From contig JAUIAH010000032.1 of the NCBI GenBank assembly GCA_030425385.1, forward strand, positions 1-64,000: a stretch of DNA of 64,000 nucleotides. The letters are read 5' to 3'. The translations under genes and the position numbers were made by a program. Positions 64 to 12,806 of the stretch are shown piece after piece. A model generated the notes under the pieces. The model made no database searches, had not been told where the DNA came from, and saw only the letters and a program-made list of their open reading frames with translations. Each line of letters starts with the position of its first letter. Positions within the stretch are counted from its first letter, which is position 1. The stretch is from Verrucomicrobiia bacterium (GTDB lineage: Bacteria; Verrucomicrobiota; Verrucomicrobiia; Verrucomicrobiales; DEV007).

Positions 64-1092
64 GGTCTGTATCAGGTTGTGTCAGACCTGCTCGATCCTG
101 TCCATCGTTTCGGGGGAACTTCACTCCAGCTAATTCCGTTGGAAGATAGCCAACAATCACGCGAAAGCTGTCAATGTCGTCGTCGATATAACTTTTTTGA
201 GGTTTTTAACTGGCTTTAGGAACGGCGCAAGAACAACTTCCGATGTTTCTCTGAGAACGACGCCCGTAGAACCGGACTAGCGGGTTCCTCTCCATATCTA
301 ATAAGTAATTCCTGCGCCGTTCCTTACCGTTCATCAAATGCCCGATCACCAACGCGGTAGCTGAGGGGTTGAACCGAATGATCAGACAAAGACGGAATCT
401 AGCGAGTGGCTATCGGAGCGTGGAATGCTTCAAAGACATCATCTACCTGACACTGGGAGACCTTGATTTGCCTGGGGAAATAACTGTGGACCAGCAACTG
501 GAATGGACATAAAGACATGCATACATCACATTCGCAAGAACATGGCGACGGCGAAAGTGAATATGCCAAGGGATCCCGGAGGGCGCGAAGCGGACGAGGA
601 CAGCCCTTGACACCTTCACTGGAGCTGCTTGATTGTTGCCAGTTCTGAGATGCTGCTTTGCCTTATCAGGGAAGTAGATTTCTTTCTTTTCCTACTGCCC
701 CAATACCGTTTGGAAAACGTCTTAGATATTGGTTCGCCGCTGTACAAGTGACGACCGCAGATCCTCCGATCCCTTTCCCGAGAAATACCGTCTCGAACGC
801 ATTAATCTACTTTGCGAAACTCGAATTTAGCCCATTTTATGACGCTCACTTTATTTGCGATTTCTTCTTGATATTTCTTGAGGCGATGTTAGCCCTTCCG
901 CATTTGAGGAAGTGAGCTCTACTGAGGAGTGCCTTGAATATCTTTCCTTTCCTTTCCGCAGGGCGCTCTGAAGTTCGTCCATGGTTCGGTAGCCGATTCC
1001 AGGCCAACACCATCCGTCTAGGGCTGAGGTATCGATAGCCCCCTCGCCCCGAAGTGCGCCTTGAGCGACCATAGAAGCATGGGCTTAAGGAT
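64..1092. other. About 1 kb without a supportable gene
   Basis: This stretch is less GC-rich than the rest of the window, and no frame in it resembles a protein family I know. A short minus-strand frame (851-1072) and a plus-strand frame (658-915) exist, but neither has a recognisable motif, a convincing start context or normal composition. The region lies between an IS3-type transposase start and a broken DUF1963 gene, so it is probably remnant DNA. An inverted repeat at 218-324 is listed separately. Confidence 0.5.
218..324. repeat. Imperfect inverted repeat enclosing a 107-bp unit
   Basis: The left arm AGGAACGGCGCAAGAA (218-233) is matched by TTCCTGCGCCGTTCCT (309-324), its reverse complement with 15 of 16 positions identical. 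The interior of about 75 bp is not coding. The size and the terminal arms resemble a small non-autonomous element (MITE-like) or a large cruciform or RNA hairpin. No obvious target-site duplication was seen outside the arms. Confidence 0.5.
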
Positions 1093-1851
1093 TTACGGCT
1101 GACATAGAAGTGTTCCTGTTTTCTCCATCCGGCACCAGAACAAAAACGCTTTGCCGCCTTTCAGGCCGAGATTAAGGTGTAGTCCATCTTGCAATTGATA
1201 GAGGAGTTCCATAGGAATCTTGCAACATGGACAGACAGGGCATTCAATGTCTTGTATCCATGCAGGCCATCCGAAGGCCTTATCATCTGGAATATGCAGA
1301 GATTCTAAGTTTTTCAATACGTCATCAGTTAGTTCTTTGCCATCGCGAAAAAGACCGCTCCCCATGTTGCCTGCCCCTCGTTTGAATGGAATCTGCTTCA
1401 ATTCCCCTAAATCAATTAGTTCGATAACACTGGGTTAGTCAGAGATTTGTAGCCAATGCGTCACTAGATGGCTTTCTAACGCTTCAACATCTGGCAATTC
1501 TGATTCTCGATATCGTTCGTTGGTATTTTGGGGGAATATTGCAATATGCGATCCCGCATTGAATGCGTCAAAAATCTCTGCGTTTTCACGCAAAGCGCAC
1601 CGTTCGTCTAAGCATTGGTAAACTTGGACGAGCTCAGAATAATCGGCATTGTTAAGCTCCGCAAGATCAATTTGGAAGAGAAATGAAAGAGGGTGACCAC
1701 ACCCACCACAAGAAGGCCACTCTCCATCTTTGTGGTAATTGGGCCACCCGCCATATTTTGTGCTTGTTGGCTCCAAATTTGTGACGCGAAGACCAATTAT
1801 TGGCAGGAAGGCATCCCGTGCGTGTTTCGTTTGCAGCTTGCTATTTTCCAT
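1093..1851 (-). pseudogene. DUF1963-family protein interrupted by an in-frame TAA
   Basis: The N-terminal piece (1851-1435) contains the YGGWPNY, EWPSCGGCGHPLSFLFQIDL-type signature of DUF1963/YwqG-like proteins, with a C-x-x-C pair and a Q-I-D-L strand. The C-terminal piece contains a second family-like segment, FGWPAWIQDIECPVCPCC. The two are separated by one TAA at 1435-1437, and the frame continues unchanged afterwards (PSVIELIDLGELKQIPF), so the two open frames are one gene of about 252 codons with a single nonsense codon. The only start for the second half would be an internal TTG at 1401. ATG 1851 is preferred over TTG 1854. DUF1963 proteins have no settled biochemical function. No partner is visible; the surroundings are IS debris. 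The gene is probably inactivated unless the stop is suppressed or is a sequence error. Confidence 0.72.
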
Positions 1852-2025
1852 CAAGGAAAGGTGACTTCAAAGGCAAAGGTGATCAAGCGTTTTCTTCAGG
1901 GTGAAGAGCCATCTGGTCCTCCAATTATCAAGCCATTTCTTTTAGCTCCGTAAGCCAATGACGGGTACCCGATGCGAAAGGTCTTGACTTCCGGTTGGGC
2001 AACGCCGGCTCCCCTGAATTCGGCG

Positions 2026-2322: not shown

Positions 2323-4181
2323 TTAAGCTATTCTGTAACTGCGCCACTTTCAAATTGATAGCCGATCTCCCATAATCTTCGATTAAGCGTCGCTGATACT
2401 TTGGCAATCGAATCACATGTGTTGGATCTCCAAGAGGATCATATTCTTCCCAATACGTGCTATCGATTACAAAATCAACAGGCAAAAGCCTTAAAGCGCC
2501 TGCGCCTTCGTCGACGTGCACCGTGTTGGAGAATGTTTTATCGTGTTCGTTCCAGATAATGAAACTGCTGTTTGGCCCTAAATTGATTGTTAGCTTTTGA
2601 TTAGGATGGTCCAATGGATTTGAAATTTCGAACCGATATCCCAATCCTTTTTGAAGAAATGCAGTGGCGGGAACCAAATCCTCTTGAACAAGGTTGAGAA
2701 TATGCTGATCGAGTTCGTCCAACAGAGAAAACTTGACATTACTCCCAGGGCTGTAAGTGTCTACAGCCACCGGTTCAAAGATCAATGAGGTGTCGTCATC
2801 CATTGCATTGACGACGCCATCACCATCAATGTCTCCATCACGTTCGTCTGCAGTGCCATCATCGTCTATATCGCTGTTGCCGTGAGAATAAGTTGACCAA
2901 CTGGCTTCACCGCTTGGGTTACCTTCAAAACCCTCGAATCCAGGCACTGCGTTTGCGTCAGCTGCTACCACGGTTGTGTACGCCGACCACCAAAACCCTC
3001 CTGTTTTGAACCAAAATTTATTGTAAAGAGTGATCGCGGTCGTTGGAAGGCCTGATACAGCAATCTGGGATGCGGCCCCAATGGCCGAACTCGCGAAGAG
3101 ATTACTACTTCCATGGCTCGTTCCCACGTGTAGAAGCCATTCTTCGATTTGACCGTTGTTAGGTGTCCAGGTATAGGTGGGAAGATTGTTAGAATTCGTA
3201 GAGAACATTGATCTATCGGGAGGATTTAACAACTGAGGATATCCGCCAACAAACGTGTTGTAATAATAGTCTCGATACTCCCAGGAAGATGAGGTGCCAT
3301 TGAGATGCCGACTCCAAAGTCGAAAGTGGACGATGCGACCATTAGTTGGAATACCTCCCAAAGTATAGGAGGTGCCCTGGGGGTTTTTGTTCTTGATGTC
3401 AAAGGCACCTGGCTCTGAACCAACGTAGAGCCAGTAGTAGAGGGGATTGGAATCGTGAGGATCCCATGAGAATGTATAAGGATCGCCTACCAATAATCCG
3501 CTTGACGGGTTTGTCATAGCGGTATCATTGACGGTTGAATACCTGTAGGTTCTATTCTTCCAAATTCCTTGGCTATTGTAATACCAGAGGGTGACATAGA
3601 TGGAAGCTCCATTACTAATGGGAAGATTCGAGATATTGTGATGGCCTGAAGAACCCGCACCAACGCCATCATTAAAGATTAAAGATGTCTTTCCCGTTGT
3701 ATGATGTGCCTATCCAGAGATGCCAATACTGAACATCCACGCTATTAGAGGTCCACGTGAATTTCGTGCTTTCGCCGGTGAGCACGCCTCCATCACTTGG
3801 CGTGAGCATTTGGGGCTTGTTTTGATTCTGGAAGCAGAAGTCGGAGGAGTGCCAGCTACCGTTCTGTTGGAAGTGGAGACGGATGAAGATTTCGTCCGTG
3901 GTGTAGAGGCTGTAGGTTGTGTGGCTGCTCGTGCTACTGGAGAGTACGCCCGAGTCGAAGAGGATGGTGCTGCCGATGGTGTAACCGCCGGTGAGGCGGT
4001 AGGCGGTGATGCCGCTGGTGCCGCCGTCTGTCCAGTTGAACGTGGCCGTCGTGCCGCCACCGATATTCGTCCATGGGACAGGACTGGTGATGTGCGGTCG
4101 CGCGAGGACGGTGATGATGGTGAATTGGGCCATGGCTACGGTGAAGACCGAGGCACGGATGAACGTGTGTTGCCATTTCAT
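2323..4181 (-). pseudogene. Secreted repeat-module surface protein, frameshifted and truncated by IS66 debris
   Basis: An ATG at 4181 gives MKWQHTFIRASVFTVAMAQ, a plausible signal peptide. The protein then has at least three beta-rich modules of about 100 residues with the pattern L-x-G-x3-F-T-W, YW-L/H-x-V/I-G-T-S, L-P-x-x-G, and a W/Y-rich end (for example YWHLWIGTS, YWLYVGSEP, EWLLHVGTS). These resemble the fibronectin-like repeats of many secreted proteins. A D-rich stretch (DIDDDGTADERDGDIDGDG) near 2800-2900 looks like thrombospondin type-3 calcium loops. The frame changes by one base at the CCC run 3693-3695 (GGG on the coding strand); removing one G restores SYNGKTSLIFNDG and the module pattern. 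The C-terminus ends at about 2322, where IS66 sequence begins. It starts 28 bp after the gene at 4210-4947 and may have been its operon partner. Confidence 0.7.
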
Positions 4182-4209
4182 GATTTCGGCTGGCTGAGTT
4201 TCCTGGCGA

Positions 4210-4947
4210 TTAGCGGGCGGATGGCGCAGGGGCGGGCGGTGTTTTGCGTCCGATGGCGGTGACCTTGTAGAAGCCGTTGGCGTGACGGCGCTTGTCCTTC
4301 CATTTGCCGGCGGGGAAGATGCCGAGGTTTTTCCATTGCTGGCCGTCGCTGGAATAGTGGATTTGGTAACGTTGCCCGCGAGATTCCGGCAAGGGGATGC
4401 TGATCTCGTTGCGGGCTTGATCGAGTTTAGCGCTGTTCGAGATGGAGAGGCCGGAGCCGTGCGTGGCCTCGGGTGGGAGCTTTCCGATGGGGACGATCCG
4501 GGATGGGGCAGATGGGAGACCTTTGATGGTTTTGGCTTTGCCAGTGGCTGGCTGTTGGGGTTCGATCTCGATCCGTTGGACGTTTCCCTTCCCGTCTGCG
4601 ACCCGAACGGCTCGCTGGTCGAAGCCTGAAGGGACATCGATGGCGTAGATGGATTTACCGAAGACCTTTTCGTTTCGCGTGTCCACGGCTCCCGCAGCTT
4701 CGAGCATTTCCTTAGTTGGCGTTGGCTCCGGCCCTTGCTTTTGTGAGTTCAGCGCTGCGCGAGGATCGCGTTTGCGCAACGGTGTGAGGGTAAGTGCGCT
4801 CTTCTTCTCGTTTGGGGCGTCGCTGATGTGCGGTTTGGAGCGATCTTTAATGACCTGAGGCGGTGCCTCAGGGCTTGGAGATTCTTGGGCGATGAGGCAA
4901 GCGAGCGTGCCGACGAGGGTGGCCATGGCGGTGGTGGTGCTTTTCAT
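4210..4947 (-). CDS. Secreted protein of unknown function
   Basis: The start is placed at ATG 4947 because it gives MKSTTTAMATLVGTLACLIA followed by QESPSPEAPPQ, a typical signal peptide and proline-rich mature N-terminus; the open frame upstream of it has no such character. The 245-residue product has a basic, proline-rich middle and a C-terminal segment around residues 185-240 (ISIPLPESRGQRYQIHYSSD, then WKNLGIFPAG and GFYKVTAIG). That segment resembles the beta-sandwich found at the C-terminus of many Verrucomicrobia secreted proteins, with a Y-x-I/V-x-x-S-x-D-x-x-x-W motif. No catalytic residues were recognised. It lies 28 bp upstream of the broken repeat-module gene on the same strand, which suggests joint expression, perhaps as a surface-associated pair. 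Confidence 0.6.
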   Translation of the reverse strand: MKSTTTAMATLVGTLACLIAQESPSPEAPPQVIKDRSKPHISDAPNEKKSALTLTPLRKRDPRAALNSQKQGPEPTPTKEMLEAAGAVDTRNEKVFGKSIYAIDVPSGFDQRAVRVADGKGNVQRIEIEPQQPATGKAKTIKGLPSAPSRIVPIGKLPPEATHGSGLSISNSAKLDQARNEISIPLPESRGQRYQIHYSSDGQQWKNLGIFPAGKWKDKRRHANGFYKVTAIGRKTPPAPAPSAR

Positions 4948-5263
4948 GAGGGTACGGTGATTCTGATAGGTGAATGGGTGCGTATTCCTGCGACGGCGAA
5001 GACAGGACATGATCGGGGCGTTGCGATACCCCAGTGAGAACGACGGTGGACTGCGTGACGGGAAGAGCCTTTTGTTAGGCCTGAACTGTAGGGGCTGGAA
5101 AGCCCCCCCGAACACTATTACTAAAAGGCTTGCAGATGATCCCCACCACACGGAGGCGCTTCTCTTCGAGCAAACGCTCGCCACGCAATCGCAATCGCAT
5201 GATTTCCATTGAGGCGTGTCAGCGGGCCATCTATCGTAGCTTATAAGAATCTGTTAAGATTTT
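4948..5263. other. Intergenic region with a short GC-rich hairpin
   Basis: This 316-bp gap separates two minus-strand genes. It contains a perfect six-pair hairpin GGGGCT-GGAA-AGCCCC at 5091-5106. No T-run follows on either strand, so it is only a weak terminator candidate; it could equally be a leader structure for the gene starting at 4947. A GTTAGG hexamer is present near 5075. No promoter could be placed with confidence. Confidence 0.35.
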
Positions 5264-6433
5264 TCAGGGAAGCGCGCTGATGGCGTGCGAGAAGCGTTTG
5301 AGGCCTTCGGCGAGCATGGCACGCGGACAGCCGAGGTTCCAGCGGACGAAGCCGGGCGCGCCGAAATCGCGTCCGTTGGAAAGTGTGAGGCCGTGTTTCT
5401 GGAAGTGGGCGACAAGGTGGATGTCCGTGCCTAACGGACGCACATCGAGCCAAGCTAGGTAGGTGGCTTCGGCTTTGGTGAGGGGGAGATCGGGATGATG
5501 GGTGGCGAGGTAGTCTGCGAAGAAGGCGTGGTTGTCACGCAGGGTCTCAAGCAGGGCTTGGCGCCAGGGTTCGCCATGGCGGAAGGCGGCGGCGGTAGCG
5601 GTGTAGCCGAAGACATTGACGGGGGCGATCCAGCAGCCCATGGCTTGGCGAAAGGCCACTCGCAGGTTGCCATCGGGGATCACTGCGAAGGCGCAGCCAA
5701 CGCCAGCGATGTTGTAGGTCTTGCTAGCAGCCATGAGGGTAATGATCGATTTCTGCCAGTCGTGATCGAGGTGGAGAGCGCTGATGTGTGGCGTGCGCTC
5801 CTCGTCGAGGATAAGGTCGCAATGGATCTCATCTGAGCATAACAGTAGCTCATGGCGAGCGCAGAAATCGCCTAACCAATCGAGTTCTTCCCGCGTGTAG
5901 ACGCGGCCCACGGGGTTGTGGGGATTGCAGAGGATGAAGAGTCCGGTGTCGGGACGAACGGCTTCTTCGAGCGCTTGTCGATCCCAGGTGAGTCGACCTG
6001 ATTCCTCGACGAGAGGAACCTGCAAGACGTCGAGAGCGCCATCGAGCGGTGCCTTGAGGAAGGGCGGGTAGATCGGGGTGCAGGTGAGGATGGATCGTGC
6101 CCCCTGTGTGCGGGCGACGGCGGCGGTGACGCTCAAGGCCGGGACGAGTCCTGGCAGCCATACCAACCAGGAGCCTTCGGCGTGAATCCGATGCCGCGTA
6201 CGCAGGTAGTGTAGGACGGCTTCTTTCTCTTCAATCGTGGGATAGGCGTAACCAAAGACCCCGTGGGCAGCCCGTTTCTCCAGGGCTGCGACGACTTCTG
6301 GGGGCGATGTGAAGTCCATGTCCGCCACCCAGAAGGGGAGGGCATCGCCTCCATGCAGGTCCCATTTCAACGACCCTGAACCGCGTCGGTCAGGAGCTTG
6401 GTGAAAGTCAACGTCAACATCATTGGCCGCCAT
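5264..6433 (-). CDS. PatB/MalY-type PLP-dependent aminotransferase / cystathionine beta-lyase
   Basis: This is a 389-residue fold-type I PLP enzyme. Visible signatures are the N-terminal LKWDLHGGDALPFWVADMDF segment typical of the MalY/PatB group (residues 22-41), CNPHNPVGR (169-177), SDEIHCDL (200-207) with the cofactor-contacting Asp, and the Schiff-base lysine in AASKTYNIAG (K238). Members of this family cleave cystathionine or cysteine S-conjugates to pyruvate, ammonia and a thiol; some have regulatory roles or act as aminotransferases, so the exact substrate is uncertain. ATG 6433 was chosen because family similarity begins about 20 residues after it and the open frame further upstream lacks family features. 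The gene is 25 bp downstream of the thioredoxin-fold gene (stop 6459) on the same strand and may be co-transcribed with it. Confidence 0.88.
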   Translation of the reverse strand: MAANDVDVDFHQAPDRRGSGSLKWDLHGGDALPFWVADMDFTSPPEVVAALEKRAAHGVFGYAYPTIEEKEAVLHYLRTRHRIHAEGSWLVWLPGLVPALSVTAAVARTQGARSILTCTPIYPPFLKAPLDGALDVLQVPLVEESGRLTWDRQALEEAVRPDTGLFILCNPHNPVGRVYTREELDWLGDFCARHELLLCSDEIHCDLILDEERTPHISALHLDHDWQKSIITLMAASKTYNIAGVGCAFAVIPDGNLRVAFRQAMGCWIAPVNVFGYTATAAAFRHGEPWRQALLETLRDNHAFFADYLATHHPDLPLTKAEATYLAWLDVRPLGTDIHLVAHFQKHGLTLSNGRDFGAPGFVRWNLGCPRAMLAEGLKRFSHAISALP

Positions 6434-8817: not shown

Positions 8818-9804
8818 ATGAAACGGCTCTTGTTTGCTGTCGCCGTCCTCTCGCCCGTGGTGGCCTGGGGGGATTCCTCGCCTCTGAAGTTCAAGACGTA
8901 TCGTGACTGGGACCTAGAGTTGCCTGAAGCGGAAGCAAAGCCTCTGAGCGGGCCGATCGTCCTGGAGGGAATGAAGATGGCTTTCAATACGGGTGTCGAG
9001 GGCACGGCCTTGCAGGTCGATAAGGATGGCGATGGCAACTTTGACGTCAAGGTCACGGGCGAATCGGGACTGGTGACTTTGCAAGGGGAGACGCAGCGCT
9101 ACGCGCTCCGGGTAGCCAATCAAGGGACCGGATGGCATGCCATGCCTGGAGGTGCCATGGTGGGCAAAGTGCGAGGGCAGCAAGTGCGCCTGATTGATCA
9201 GAATCTCAATGGACGTTTTGACGATTATGGGGTGGATGCGATGATTGTGGGGCGGGGGAAACATGCTTCCTTTCTTTCCCGAGTGATCAACGTGCGGGGA
9301 GATTTGGTATCGATCGCGGTCGCTCCTGACGGGACGTCCGTGACGTGGGAGCCTTACCAAGGTGAGCGCGGGACGCTCGACTTCGGCACTTCATTTGCCT
9401 CGAAAGGGAAGCTGTTAGGGGCGGTAGTTGTGGAATCCTCCAAACAGCTCTCCTACACCCTGACGAGCCGTGCCATGACTGTGCCCGCGGGAAACTATCA
9501 ATTGCACCAGGGGCGCATTGGTCTCGGTCGCAATGTGGTGAGCTTTGGTCCCGGCAAGATGGGAATGTTGGCCGTGACGGCTGGAGAAACAATGGCGGTT
9601 ACATTGGGAGAACCTGTCACCATTGATTTCAAATACGTGCGGCAACCTGGGCGGGTGATCATGGCGCCACAACTCGTCAGCTACGTGGGCAAGGCAGGTG
9701 AGGTTTACGATCAGTGGACGCCCTTTGGTGGGTCCCCTCAGTTTGAGGTGAAGGACATGGAATCTGGGAAACAACTGGCCATCGCCGTCTTTGGCGGCTG
9801 CTGA
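8818..9804 (+). CDS. Secreted N-terminal module, in frame with the downstream TlpA-like domain across a UGA
   Basis: The 328-residue product begins with a signal peptide (MKRLLFAVAVLSPVVAWG). It contains two Asp/Asn-rich calcium-loop-like segments, DKDGDGNFDV (about 68-77) and DQNLNGRFDDYG (about 126-137), each followed by a short beta-hairpin, and a beta-rich C-terminal half. It ends AVFGGC and TGA at 9802-9804. The same frame then continues GGFAPAAVRVPAAAKITV and runs open through a complete thioredoxin domain to 10371. The combined 517-codon product would be an exported TlpA-type protein with an N-terminal sensor or binding domain, a common architecture in this phylum. The TGA therefore looks internal rather than terminal: selenocysteine, a nonsense mutation or a sequence error. 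Confidence 0.65.
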   Translation: MKRLLFAVAVLSPVVAWGDSSPLKFKTYRDWDLELPEAEAKPLSGPIVLEGMKMAFNTGVEGTALQVDKDGDGNFDVKVTGESGLVTLQGETQRYALRVANQGTGWHAMPGGAMVGKVRGQQVRLIDQNLNGRFDDYGVDAMIVGRGKHASFLSRVINVRGDLVSIAVAPDGTSVTWEPYQGERGTLDFGTSFASKGKLLGAVVVESSKQLSYTLTSRAMTVPAGNYQLHQGRIGLGRNVVSFGPGKMGMLAVTAGETMAVTLGEPVTIDFKYVRQPGRVIMAPQLVSYVGKAGEVYDQWTPFGGSPQFEVKDMESGKQLAIAVFGGC

Positions 9805-9825
9805 GGAGGCTTTGCTCCGGCCGCC
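9793..9825 (+). other. Hairpin surrounding the in-frame UGA
   Basis: GGCGGC (9793-9798) can pair with GCCGCC (9820-9825), and inside it GGAG (9805-9808) pairs with CTCC (9815-9818) around a six-base loop. The UGA at 9802-9804 lies in the internal loop. Bacterial SECIS elements are stem-loops beginning at or just after the UGA, with the apical loop usually farther downstream than here, so this is suggestive but not a textbook match. It could also affect coupling to the GTG at 9826. Confidence 0.3.
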
Positions 9826-10371
9826 GTGCGCGTGCCTGCTGCTGCTAAGATCACTGTGAACGCTACTGCCAAGACCTGGGCCTTTGATAAGATGTCAGGC
9901 GAAGGGGCTCCCCATGGAGACGCCTCGGCGCTCTCGAGTCTGATCGGTCAGGAAGCGCCAGACTTTGAGGTGGGTCTGTTAGGAGGGGAAACGTTCCGTT
10001 TGTCGGATCATCTGGGGAAACGCGTGGTGGTGCTCGATTTCTGGGCGACCTGGTGCGGGCCCTGCATCCAGGCGATGCCGGAGGTGATCGCTGCGGTGGA
10101 GAGCGTGGATCCCACGGAGGTGACTTTCATTGCCGTGAATCAGCAAGAGGCTCCTGACAAAGTGGCGACATTTCTTGGCCGCAAGGGCTGGGAGAAACTC
10201 GTGGTCGCCCTCGATGATGGGGCCGTGCGTGAGAAGTATGAAGTCTCTGGCATTCCCACCACTGTCATTATTTCCAAGACCGGCAAGGTGACCATGGTGC
10301 ATTCAGGCTATCACGAAGGCCTTGAGGAAGATCTCAAGCTCGATCTTCAAGATGCGTTGTCGGCAGAATAG
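9826..10371 (+). CDS. TlpA/ResA-like thioredoxin domain
   Basis: The frame contains a complete AhpC/TSA-Redoxin domain: GQEAPDFEV (41-49), VVVLDFWATWCGPC (67-80) with the redox pair C77/C80, and GIPTTVII with the cis-proline near residue 145. Such proteins reduce or isomerise disulfides in the periplasm, for example during cytochrome c maturation. Taken alone from GTG 9826 it has no signal peptide, which is odd for this family. Its frame is continuous with 8818-9804 except for one UGA, so the natural protein is probably the fusion. The following gene starts 3 bp after the stop, indicating one transcript. Confidence 0.85.
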   Translation: MRVPAAAKITVNATAKTWAFDKMSGEGAPHGDASALSSLIGQEAPDFEVGLLGGETFRLSDHLGKRVVVLDFWATWCGPCIQAMPEVIAAVESVDPTEVTFIAVNQQEAPDKVATFLGRKGWEKLVVALDDGAVREKYEVSGIPTTVIISKTGKVTMVHSGYHEGLEEDLKLDLQDALSAE

Positions 10372-10373
10372 CG

Positions 10374-12806
10374 ATGGTGAAGCTGCGTCTGATTCTCTTA
10401 GCGATCCTGTCGATGACAGGGGTCGTGGTCGCGCAGGTGCAGCCCGCGCAGCTTCTTGGACCTGGGGCTGCCGGTCCCGGTGCGCCTCCGGGCGACCCCT
10501 TTGCGCCCCCTTCGCAGGAGCCCACCGAGCCCTTTGAAGTCGGCGGCGACACCACCGCGACCCATGGTCGGATTCCGGTGAATGTGGTGGGTGGGCGTTT
10601 GGTCGCCCACTGTGAGATTTCCACCATTCACCGCCGCATCCCGGCAAATCTCTTCATCGACCTGGAAAGTCCCTCCGTCTTCCAATTGCACAACAACGCG
10701 GCAGGGCCTCTGAAGGTCGAGAATGAAGCGGGAGAAACGATTCCGATCACCGTGCACTTCCCCGAGTTTCAAGTGGTGCTGCCGCGTCGAGAGGAAGGGC
10801 CCGAAGACGTCTTTGCCGAATTCACGCGACTTTATTCCCGCGAGATCGGGGAGGATGCTGTCGTCGGAGCGTTAGGGGCGCAGTTCTTCAAAGACTACGC
10901 GTTGGTGCTCGATCTGCCCGCTGGATACGTGCACGTGGAGCCTCCCACCGTGGACGAATCTCCCCCGGAGGAAGGGACCTTGCGGGTGCCGGTGTCGACG
11001 ACCGACGACATCATCTGGCTGCCTGTGACATTGCCAGGAGATGAGAAGGCGGCCATGGCGCTCGGCACGGTGGAGGAGGATTCCATGGTGGATGCTGTCT
11101 GGAGTGATGAGTTAGGGCATCCTTATGGCGATCTCGACACGCTTTTGTTAGGCGATGCCAATCTCGCTGAACGCATGGCGTTCCGCCCGGCAGAAATCAA
11201 TTTCGTGCACGAGGACGGGGCCTTTGGCATCATCGGCCTCAGCTTGCTACAGCAAATGCGCGTCGCGATTGATCATGCGCGCACGCGTGCTGATATCGTC
11301 TTCACGGAAGCGCCCGCGTATCCTAAGGAGGAAGCAGCGTTCTACGAAGCACTCGTCGAGGATGATCCAGAACTCTTCATGGCGTTCCTGCAAACCCATG
11401 CGGAGGCGCGTCATCGGCAAGAAGCGGCAGAGCGGCTCTTACATGCGCACCTAGACAGCGATGCGGAGCCGGAACTCATGGAGCAAGCCATTGCATGGCT
11501 CAGTGAAACTTGGAGGAAAGACATCCGCGCCACCCGTGCGCTCGATTTGATGAAAGAACTGAGTGAGGCAGGCTATGCGGACGCTGCCTTGGATGCCGGG
11601 AAGCATGGAGTGGAAGGTGGTCGCGAGGACCGCTATCCCAACGCCGTGCACCAGATTCATGCGCGCATGGGCGAGATCTTGTTAGGCAAAGAAGATCTCA
11701 AGCAGGCTTGGCGCCATCTCCTCTCCGCGGCCTTTGGCTTGCCGGAGGATGGTATGATCAATCTGCATCTGGGGCAATGTTATGAGAAACAAGGGCGATA
11801 TCAGCGGGCGATGTCGCGCTACGTGCAAGCATTGCTCGACGCCGCGAGTGGAGAACAAGCGGTGGACGCTTTGGCTCGAGTGAGTCGATTGATGGGGGAA
11901 GGCGAAGCTCTGACCGTGGATCGGATCGAGCCATTGATTGCCGGAAAGACATACGGGTATAGCGCGGCCACGCGGTATCGACCCACGGAGGAGGAGAAAG
12001 CGGCCAAGCGCGTAGCCTTGGTGGAATTCTTTACCAACGCGCAGCACAAGCACCCTACGCGTGACGAAGGTGCTATTGGAGGAGCGTTAGGGAATGAAGG
12101 CGTGCTGTCGTATTTCCCCCGCACCCATGTCGCCGCGCTCGCCTATCATTTGCCTCACCCGCAACTTGGGATGGATTCGCTCACCAATGAGGTCGCGCAG
12201 GCGCAAGCGGATGTCTATGGAGTGCCGCCAGCCATCCACATCGTCAATGGCGTGGCTCAATTTCCCGGACAAGGCAAGGCACGGGATGCCGAGCAAATTT
12301 ATAAAACGGGACGCGACGTGGTGCGGGAGGCGCTGCGGCAGCCTGCCACGGTGATGTTAGAACTCGACGCGACCCTCGAAGGCAAGGTCTTGAAGGGAGC
12401 GCTGGTCGTGGAAGGTGTCGATGCCCTCGATGCTCGTGTGCATCTCGTTCTCGCTGAGCGCGGAGTCCTCTATCCGGGGCGGAGCAAGGTGATTGTGCAT
12501 CGGATGGTGGCACGCGCCGCCTTGACGCGCTCGGTGATGGGCGAGCCCTATCAGGCAAATGAAGAGGGAAAGATGACTCTCACCTTTCAACGCAATCTCG
12601 CGGAGATTGCCCAGGGAAATCGTTTCTATCTGGAGGAGATTCAGGGCGAGGGTAAAGGCGCTGTGCAGCCCTATGCCACGCGTATGGATCCAAAGCAAAT
12701 CACTCTCGTCGCCTTTGTTCGCGACAACGACACCCGGGAAGTGCTGCAAGCCATTCAGATCGATCCCGTGCTGGTCGACGCCAAGGAAGGAGAGTCCTCT
12801 TCATGA
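10374..12806 (+). CDS. Secreted pseudo-retropepsin / TPR / Omp28-like multidomain protein
   Basis: The product has 810 residues with a signal peptide (MVKLRLILLAILSMTGVVVAQ). Residues about 60-320 look like one or two retropepsin-type beta barrels (PANLFIDLESPS, GALGAQFFKDYALVLDL, GIIGLSLLQQMRVAID), but the catalytic D-T/S-G is absent (DLESPS), so protease activity is unlikely. Residues about 325-520 are helical with TPR-like repeats (INLHLGQCYEKQGRYQRAM). Residues about 550-690 resemble the Omp28/DUF1223 thioredoxin fold (VALVEFFTNAQHKHPTRDEG ... VYGVPPAIHIVNG), with the usual CxxC replaced by NAQH, and a beta-sandwich follows (VIVHRMVARAALT). It is co-transcribed with the TlpA-like gene before it and overlaps the next gene by 4 bp (ATGA). 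It is probably an envelope binding or scaffold protein; the function is unknown. Confidence 0.6.
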   Translation: MVKLRLILLAILSMTGVVVAQVQPAQLLGPGAAGPGAPPGDPFAPPSQEPTEPFEVGGDTTATHGRIPVNVVGGRLVAHCEISTIHRRIPANLFIDLESPSVFQLHNNAAGPLKVENEAGETIPITVHFPEFQVVLPRREEGPEDVFAEFTRLYSREIGEDAVVGALGAQFFKDYALVLDLPAGYVHVEPPTVDESPPEEGTLRVPVSTTDDIIWLPVTLPGDEKAAMALGTVEEDSMVDAVWSDELGHPYGDLDTLLLGDANLAERMAFRPAEINFVHEDGAFGIIGLSLLQQMRVAIDHARTRADIVFTEAPAYPKEEAAFYEALVEDDPELFMAFLQTHAEARHRQEAAERLLHAHLDSDAEPELMEQAIAWLSETWRKDIRATRALDLMKELSEAGYADAALDAGKHGVEGGREDRYPNAVHQIHARMGEILLGKEDLKQAWRHLLSAAFGLPEDGMINLHLGQCYEKQGRYQRAMSRYVQALLDAASGEQAVDALARVSRLMGEGEALTVDRIEPLIAGKTYGYSAATRYRPTEEEKAAKRVALVEFFTNAQHKHPTRDEGAIGGALGNEGVLSYFPRTHVAALAYHLPHPQLGMDSLTNEVAQAQADVYGVPPAIHIVNGVAQFPGQGKARDAEQIYKTGRDVVREALRQPATVMLELDATLEGKVLKGALVVEGVDALDARVHLVLAERGVLYPGRSKVIVHRMVARAALTRSVMGEPYQANEEGKMTLTFQRNLAEIAQGNRFYLEEIQGEGKGAVQPYATRMDPKQITLVAFVRDNDTREVLQAIQIDPVLVDAKEGESSS

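Follow-up and report, generated by a model that had tools for sequence, protein, structure and literature searches.

The closest described systems are the UGC/UxxC-type TlpA selenoproteins (cd02966, NF041054, PMC13188914), which are exported TlpA-type proteins with one selenocysteine (Sec) decoded from UGA. In those proteins, the Sec forms part of the thioredoxin active site, whereas in the gene described here that site is CGPC and the putative Sec is in a separate N-terminal beta-sandwich. NF041054 scored our protein at 30 bits against a cut-off of 300, and the Sec does not fall within the thioredoxin site. The 2026 catalogue of 119 prokaryotic selenoprotein families and subfamilies lists the UGC-type TlpA together with a GUxG hypothetical protein, DG (PMC13188914). 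DG (NF049953, from deep-Sep; PMC12013277) shares Gly-Sec-x-Gly with our gene and is also a computationally predicted bacterial selenoprotein with no known domain, but many Cys homologs have been reported for it (PMC12013277), and we set it apart from our family by description. NF049953 had no match among our 16 family members in NCBIfam release 20.0, a copy whose inclusion of NF049953 is unconfirmed.

The remaining relatives are the TlpA/ResA proteins (PF00578, PF08534; Bacillus subtilis ResA structures). The C-terminal CGPC domain of our protein resembles these by both Pfam and PDB matches and is an AhpC-TSA/Redoxin domain with CxxC (PF00578, 65.0 bits versus a cut-off of 26). It differs from them in being fused behind a Sec-bearing domain.

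A UGA-interrupted reading frame and its homologs

We analyzed a 64,000-nucleotide stretch of a Verrucomicrobiia genome, here called the window. On the forward strand, a single frame runs from an ATG at 8818 to a TAG at 10369-10371. Its sole internal stop, a TGA at 9802-9804, comes right after GGC-GGC-TGC (Gly-Gly-Cys), and 188 sense codons lie beyond it. An open run of this length after a random stop has a chance of p ~8e-4 at the local base composition. Codon-position composition is equal on the two sides of the UGA, with GC1/2/3 of.63/.44/.66 upstream and.66/.45/.64 downstream. The downstream part contains an intact TlpA/AhpC-TSA domain with C413-G-P-C416 and without an export signal of its own. 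A preliminary description had reported the lone in-frame UGA and the leaderless CGPC domain, and both observations were borne out by the frame, the translation, and the domain matches. It had offered two explanations for the UGA, Sec or a recent nonsense mutation. Features of the gene are collected in Table 1.

Table 1. Features of the putative selenoprotein gene in the window
Feature	Positions	Strand	Basis
Complete CDS, 517-residue putative selenoprotein (leader, N-terminal region, Sec domain, TlpA domain)	8818..10371	+	Frame and full-length same-genus ortholog
Probable signal peptide MKRLLFAVAVLSPVVAWGD	8818..8874, end approximate	+	Hydrophobic leader seen by inspecting the translation
Sec-bearing, likely Ig/FN3-like domain, residues ~266-358	9613..9891	+	16-row alignment, AlphaFold2 model, structural comparison (Z 5-7)
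Cys328 codon immediately 5' of Sec; restricted to the window's genus	9799..9801	+	Alignments
UGA predicted to be read as Sec329	9802..9804	+	UGA at the same column in 16/16 homologs
15-codon block, -4 to +10 around UGA; 14 identical in ortholog	9790..9834	+	44% background; permutation p 0.0018
Predicted bacterial SECIS hairpin	9819..9836	+	RNAalifold, covariation counts, covariance model from other genera, energy
TlpA/ResA-type thioredoxin-fold domain, residues ~376-500	9943..10317	+	PF08534 and PF00578 far over cut-off; PDB relatives including ResA
CGPC active site, Cys413 and Cys416	10054..10065	+	Translation

Downstream of this gene, an 810-codon open reading frame (10374-12806) with a leader-like N terminus begins 2 nt past the stop, and the two are probably cotranscribed.

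A first scan of genome contigs with the full protein returned no relative, and neither did searches of plasmids. In a second scan of genome contigs, the only match was an ortholog in a same-genus assembly (G003; contig JANQJH010000020.1, Verrucomicrobiales MAG PL25a_bin.108). This ortholog is full-length, is 71% identical, and keeps the UGA and its context (FGGC-U-GGFAPAAVRVPA). Differences between the two genes at codon positions 1/2/3 number 91/47/191 on the 5' side of the UGA and 45/24/95 on the 3' side, indicating that both parts evolve as protein. Overall, 44% of the codons for identical residues are themselves identical, whereas from -4 to +10 around the UGA 14 of all 15 codons are. This block is the most conserved 15-codon window of the gene and is unmatched elsewhere in it (permutation p = 0.0018). 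Such conservation would be expected of a coding stretch that also carries a cis-acting RNA signal.

For more distant relatives, we used an N-terminal profile without the TlpA domain. The profiles carried Cys at the UGA column, so Cys forms would have been favored. This profile recovered a G263 gene of 24% identity, whose frame contains a TGA at the corresponding position (EYG-U-GGLCSNSVRIPAEFK). A first iteration added two genes in G473 (FEYG-U-GGTC), and further iteration added genes in G106 (two), G229, G260, G263 (another), G282, G332, G391, G415, and G418 (two). Counting the window gene and its ortholog, 16 genes reach the motif, from 12 genomes, 10 genera, and 9 families. At the motif column, all 16 show TGA with a Gly codon next, and none has Cys, UAA, or UAG. 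A final search of 387 phylum genomes with the 16-row profile returned the same 10 genomes, each match with one TGA. That search gave no match with a Cys codon at the Sec column, an absence that applies to Verrucomicrobiota as sampled. Alignment of homologs at the UGA, as proposed in the preliminary description, thus recovered UGA throughout but yielded no Cys homolog for a Cys/Sec pair. The C-U-G-G context described there held in part: Gly follows the UGA in every member, but the preceding Cys is confined to the window's genus.

The family consensus is FEYG-U-GGxC-YSWRVP, and the usual motif is YG-U-GGxC. In the alignment of the Sec domain, the columns that never vary hold three prolines, the UGA, and the Gly next to it. 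Many members have U-G-G-x-C, whereas the window gene instead has Cys directly before the Sec, and the presumed resolving Cys is missing in several members. On inspection of the translations, the architectures vary: some members are exported proteins ending soon after the Sec, those of G106, G418, G391, G332, G415, and G282 have likely membrane segments, and those of the window's genus have the TlpA fusion. Tandem paralogous pairs of Sec-domain genes occur at G106:C7:305242-308132 and G418:C143:131-2766, with motifs UGGSC/UGGTC and UGFSC, the first carrying long hydrophobic C-terminal segments. A further copy of the N-terminal region (L043/L048/L060, G263:C115) stops short of the motif because the contig ends there.

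Selenocysteine machinery and a hairpin downstream of the UGA

The genome that carries the window encodes SelA (TIGR00474, 490.8 bits; cut-off, 267.9), SelB (TIGR00475, 284.5; cut-off, 242.25), and a tRNA-Sec with anticodon tca (RF01852, 65.1; cut-off, 47). The tRNA-Sec gene is directly upstream of a gene for a TIGR03169 Nterm_to_SelD-type oxidoreductase. Of the Sec genes named in the preliminary description, the analysis covered selA, selB, and the tRNA, and all three were found. SelB is also present in the same-genus assembly and in G473; the same-genus tRNA-Sec scores 45, just below the cut-off of 47. Across the phylum, the SelB wing domain was detected in 26 of 387 genomes, namely, 9 of the 10 family-positive genomes and 17 of the other 377 (Fisher p ~6e-11, a value inflated by shared ancestry, though many families are involved). 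G418, the one family-positive genome with no SelB match, is represented by a fragmented assembly that is 90% complete. In G473 (L083, G473:C386), the UGA gene (686-1969, minus strand) adjoins selA (2343-3785) and selB (3760-5706). The distance from the family gene to selB and selA is ~6.5 kb in G415.

In G003 (L085:1498-1842) and G001 (L086, L087), both of the window's genus, we also observed TlpA genes in which UGA takes the place of the first active-site cysteine codon (WUGPC). They belong to the known UxxC type, which has Sec in the thioredoxin site, and indicate that the genus uses Sec elsewhere. Genes of the same type are present in G006 (L088), G011 (L089), G024 (L090), and G009 (L091), with W-U-GPC in most.

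Local folding placed a hairpin in 16/16 sequences, with the apical loop 16 to 21 nt past the UGA. For the 14 gap-free sequences, RNAalifold returned one helix only, pairing columns 18-23 with 29-34 around a 5-nt loop. Four of the six pairs show double compensatory changes, and 91.7% of cells pair. The covariation score was 0.548, compared to 0.184 for shuffled alignments (0/500), and sliding the partners gave no more than 0.176. In the window, the hairpin consists of GGCCGC (9819-9824), the loop CGUGC (9825-9829), and GCGuGCC (9830-9836), where the bulged U is 9833. Without a gap, two of the six columns (GG, CU) are unpaired in this hairpin, and the bulge restores pairing. The 6-bp stem with its 5-nt loop starts ~14 nt past the UGA, the SECIS spacing is 20 nt, and the folding energy lies between -7.4 and -8.8 kcal/mol. 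In loop, stem, and spacing, the hairpin agrees with the published bacterial SECIS model of bSECISearch (apical loop of 5 nt, with U following a G at position 2; 6-bp stem; 20 nt). The window's genus differs from this model in the bulged U on the 3' side, and the energy of the window's own hairpin is borderline for it (PMC13188914). A covariance model built from the 12 sequences outside the window's genus was run against both strands of the 64-kb window; its top-ranked position was 9802-9852, at a modest E of 0.055, and it found the site in the same-genus ortholog at an E of 0.003.

The preliminary description had drawn a different hairpin, 9793-9825, enclosing the UGA. That hairpin folds, but it is no more stable than shuffled sequences (z = +1.8), and we rejected it as the shared element in favor of the covarying 9819-9836. 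General folding of 9795-9870 was likewise not better than shuffles, and a search of the gene's surroundings against Rfam at a relaxed threshold gave only chance matches.

Fold and family status of the Sec domain

The Sec domain had no significant match to Pfam or NCBIfam for the 16 members, and a PDB profile search with it returned nothing significant. An AlphaFold2 model from the 16-row alignment gave block-mean pLDDT values of 81 to 95 across model residues 121-160 and put the Sec on a loop that connects beta-sandwich strands. Matches to solved structures were of the generic Ig/FN3/MG type (VIA Z 5-7 over ~75-90 residues; Foldseek E of at least 8e-3). Based on this model, the Sec domain likely belongs to the Ig/FN3-like sandwich fold class rather than to the thioredoxin fold, a class assignment for which specific homology is unproven. 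Prediction of the full-length structure had a mean pLDDT of 47, too poor to judge the proximity of Sec to CGPC.

In the 119-family catalogue (PMC13188914), we found nothing recognizable as the Sec domain, and literature searches on the motif and for surveys of Verrucomicrobiota selenoproteins turned up no description of the family. Measured against Pfam, NCBIfam 20.0, and the literature searched, with unpublished annotation set aside, we regard this selenoprotein family as new. Cys/Sec pairs underlie much of the computational discovery of selenoproteins, and a family lacking Cys homologs may escape deep-Sep, as its authors acknowledge (PMC12013277); this would explain why the present family is missing from catalogues. 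With no Cys form in the genomes searched, no catalogue entry, and no Pfam or NCBIfam model, the Sec-domain genes are probably annotated as truncated proteins.

Competing readings of the UGA and a proposed function

A lone stop in an otherwise clean frame would also arise if the gene of an ordinary TlpA-type protein had recently acquired a nonsense mutation or had been missequenced. The same UGA is, however, present in an independent assembly of the genus at 71% identity and in 14 further genes from other genera, and its surroundings are the most conserved stretch of the gene. We regard this reading, the second option of the preliminary description, as contradicted and as exceedingly unlikely. 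A genuine conserved stop, with the upstream domain as the product and the downstream frame as a separate gene or untranslated, would fit the 38 to 51 codons that follow the UGA in most relatives and the GTG start downstream at 9826. Against it, residues past the UGA are kept as protein, the VRVP/WRVP proline is invariant, and divergence from codon +11 on is coding-like by codon position. An ordinary stop would be expected to appear as UAA or UAG in some lineages, yet neither occurs at the site across 9 families. The family also tracks SelB, and the downstream TlpA domain lacks a leader of its own, which together make a conserved stop very unlikely.

Since sequence alone does not identify the inserted residue, a suppressor or leaky decoding could also place another residue, e.g., Trp or Cys, at the UGA. 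Here, the association with SelB (9/10 versus 17/377), the G473 gene adjoining selAB, and the hairpin with bacterial SECIS spacing and loop all argue for Sec, and no homolog has a Trp or Cys codon at the site. We consider readthrough with another residue extremely unlikely. The Sec option is strongly supported by the UGA kept in the ortholog and all distant homologs, the machinery, and the covarying hairpin. The gene seemingly broken by a stop thus almost certainly encodes, to judge from these sequence comparisons, one exported selenocysteine redox protein. The conserved UGA, the covarying hairpin, the Sec machinery, the family, and the TlpA fusion are all present in the sequences, and we are highly confident in the explanation as a whole, i.e., one exported Sec protein made with the cell's own machinery and the SECIS at 9819-9836, with the Sec domain and CGPC acting in redox chemistry.

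In our model, the predicted SECIS hairpin would direct the ribosome to insert Sec at UGA 9802-9804, with tRNA-Sec, SelA, and SelB all supplied by the same genome. The Sec would sit in a loop of the Ig/FN3-like beta-sandwich domain that appears to define this Verrucomicrobiota family and, in the window's genus, would be joined to a C-terminal TlpA domain with its CGPC active site. From the features above, we infer Sec incorporation, the fold, a periplasmic location, the substrate, and the electron path. The most likely function would be extracytoplasmic thiol/selenol redox chemistry in the periplasm or at the cell surface, a role suggested by the TlpA fusion and known Sec chemistry only. As a reactive selenol, Sec329 might attack an oxidant or a protein disulfide and possibly form a selenylsulfide with Cys328. 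The fused CGPC domain could then supply electrons and re-reduce Sec329.

In this arrangement, the domain that carries Sec is not modeled as a thioredoxin fold, and its location is probably extracytoplasmic. Lineages of the phylum without Sec machinery far outnumber those with it, and still no Cys form was found. We give an even chance to the proposal that Sec is obligate here, with no cysteine form of the family in existence, and that this Sec is carried outside the cytoplasm by an Ig/FN3-like beta-sandwich to which, in some members, a dedicated TlpA reductase is attached. Such a family would be an extracytoplasmic selenoenzyme of a new type, in which cysteine could not take over the chemistry. 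The family also gives a direct test of which reactions strictly depend on selenium.

Upstream of the Sec domain, the N-terminal region contains Asp/Asn-rich motifs resembling calcium-binding loops, DKDGDGNFD and DQNLNGRFDDYG (window ~9019-9048 and ~9199-9237). These motifs are largely kept in the distant members.
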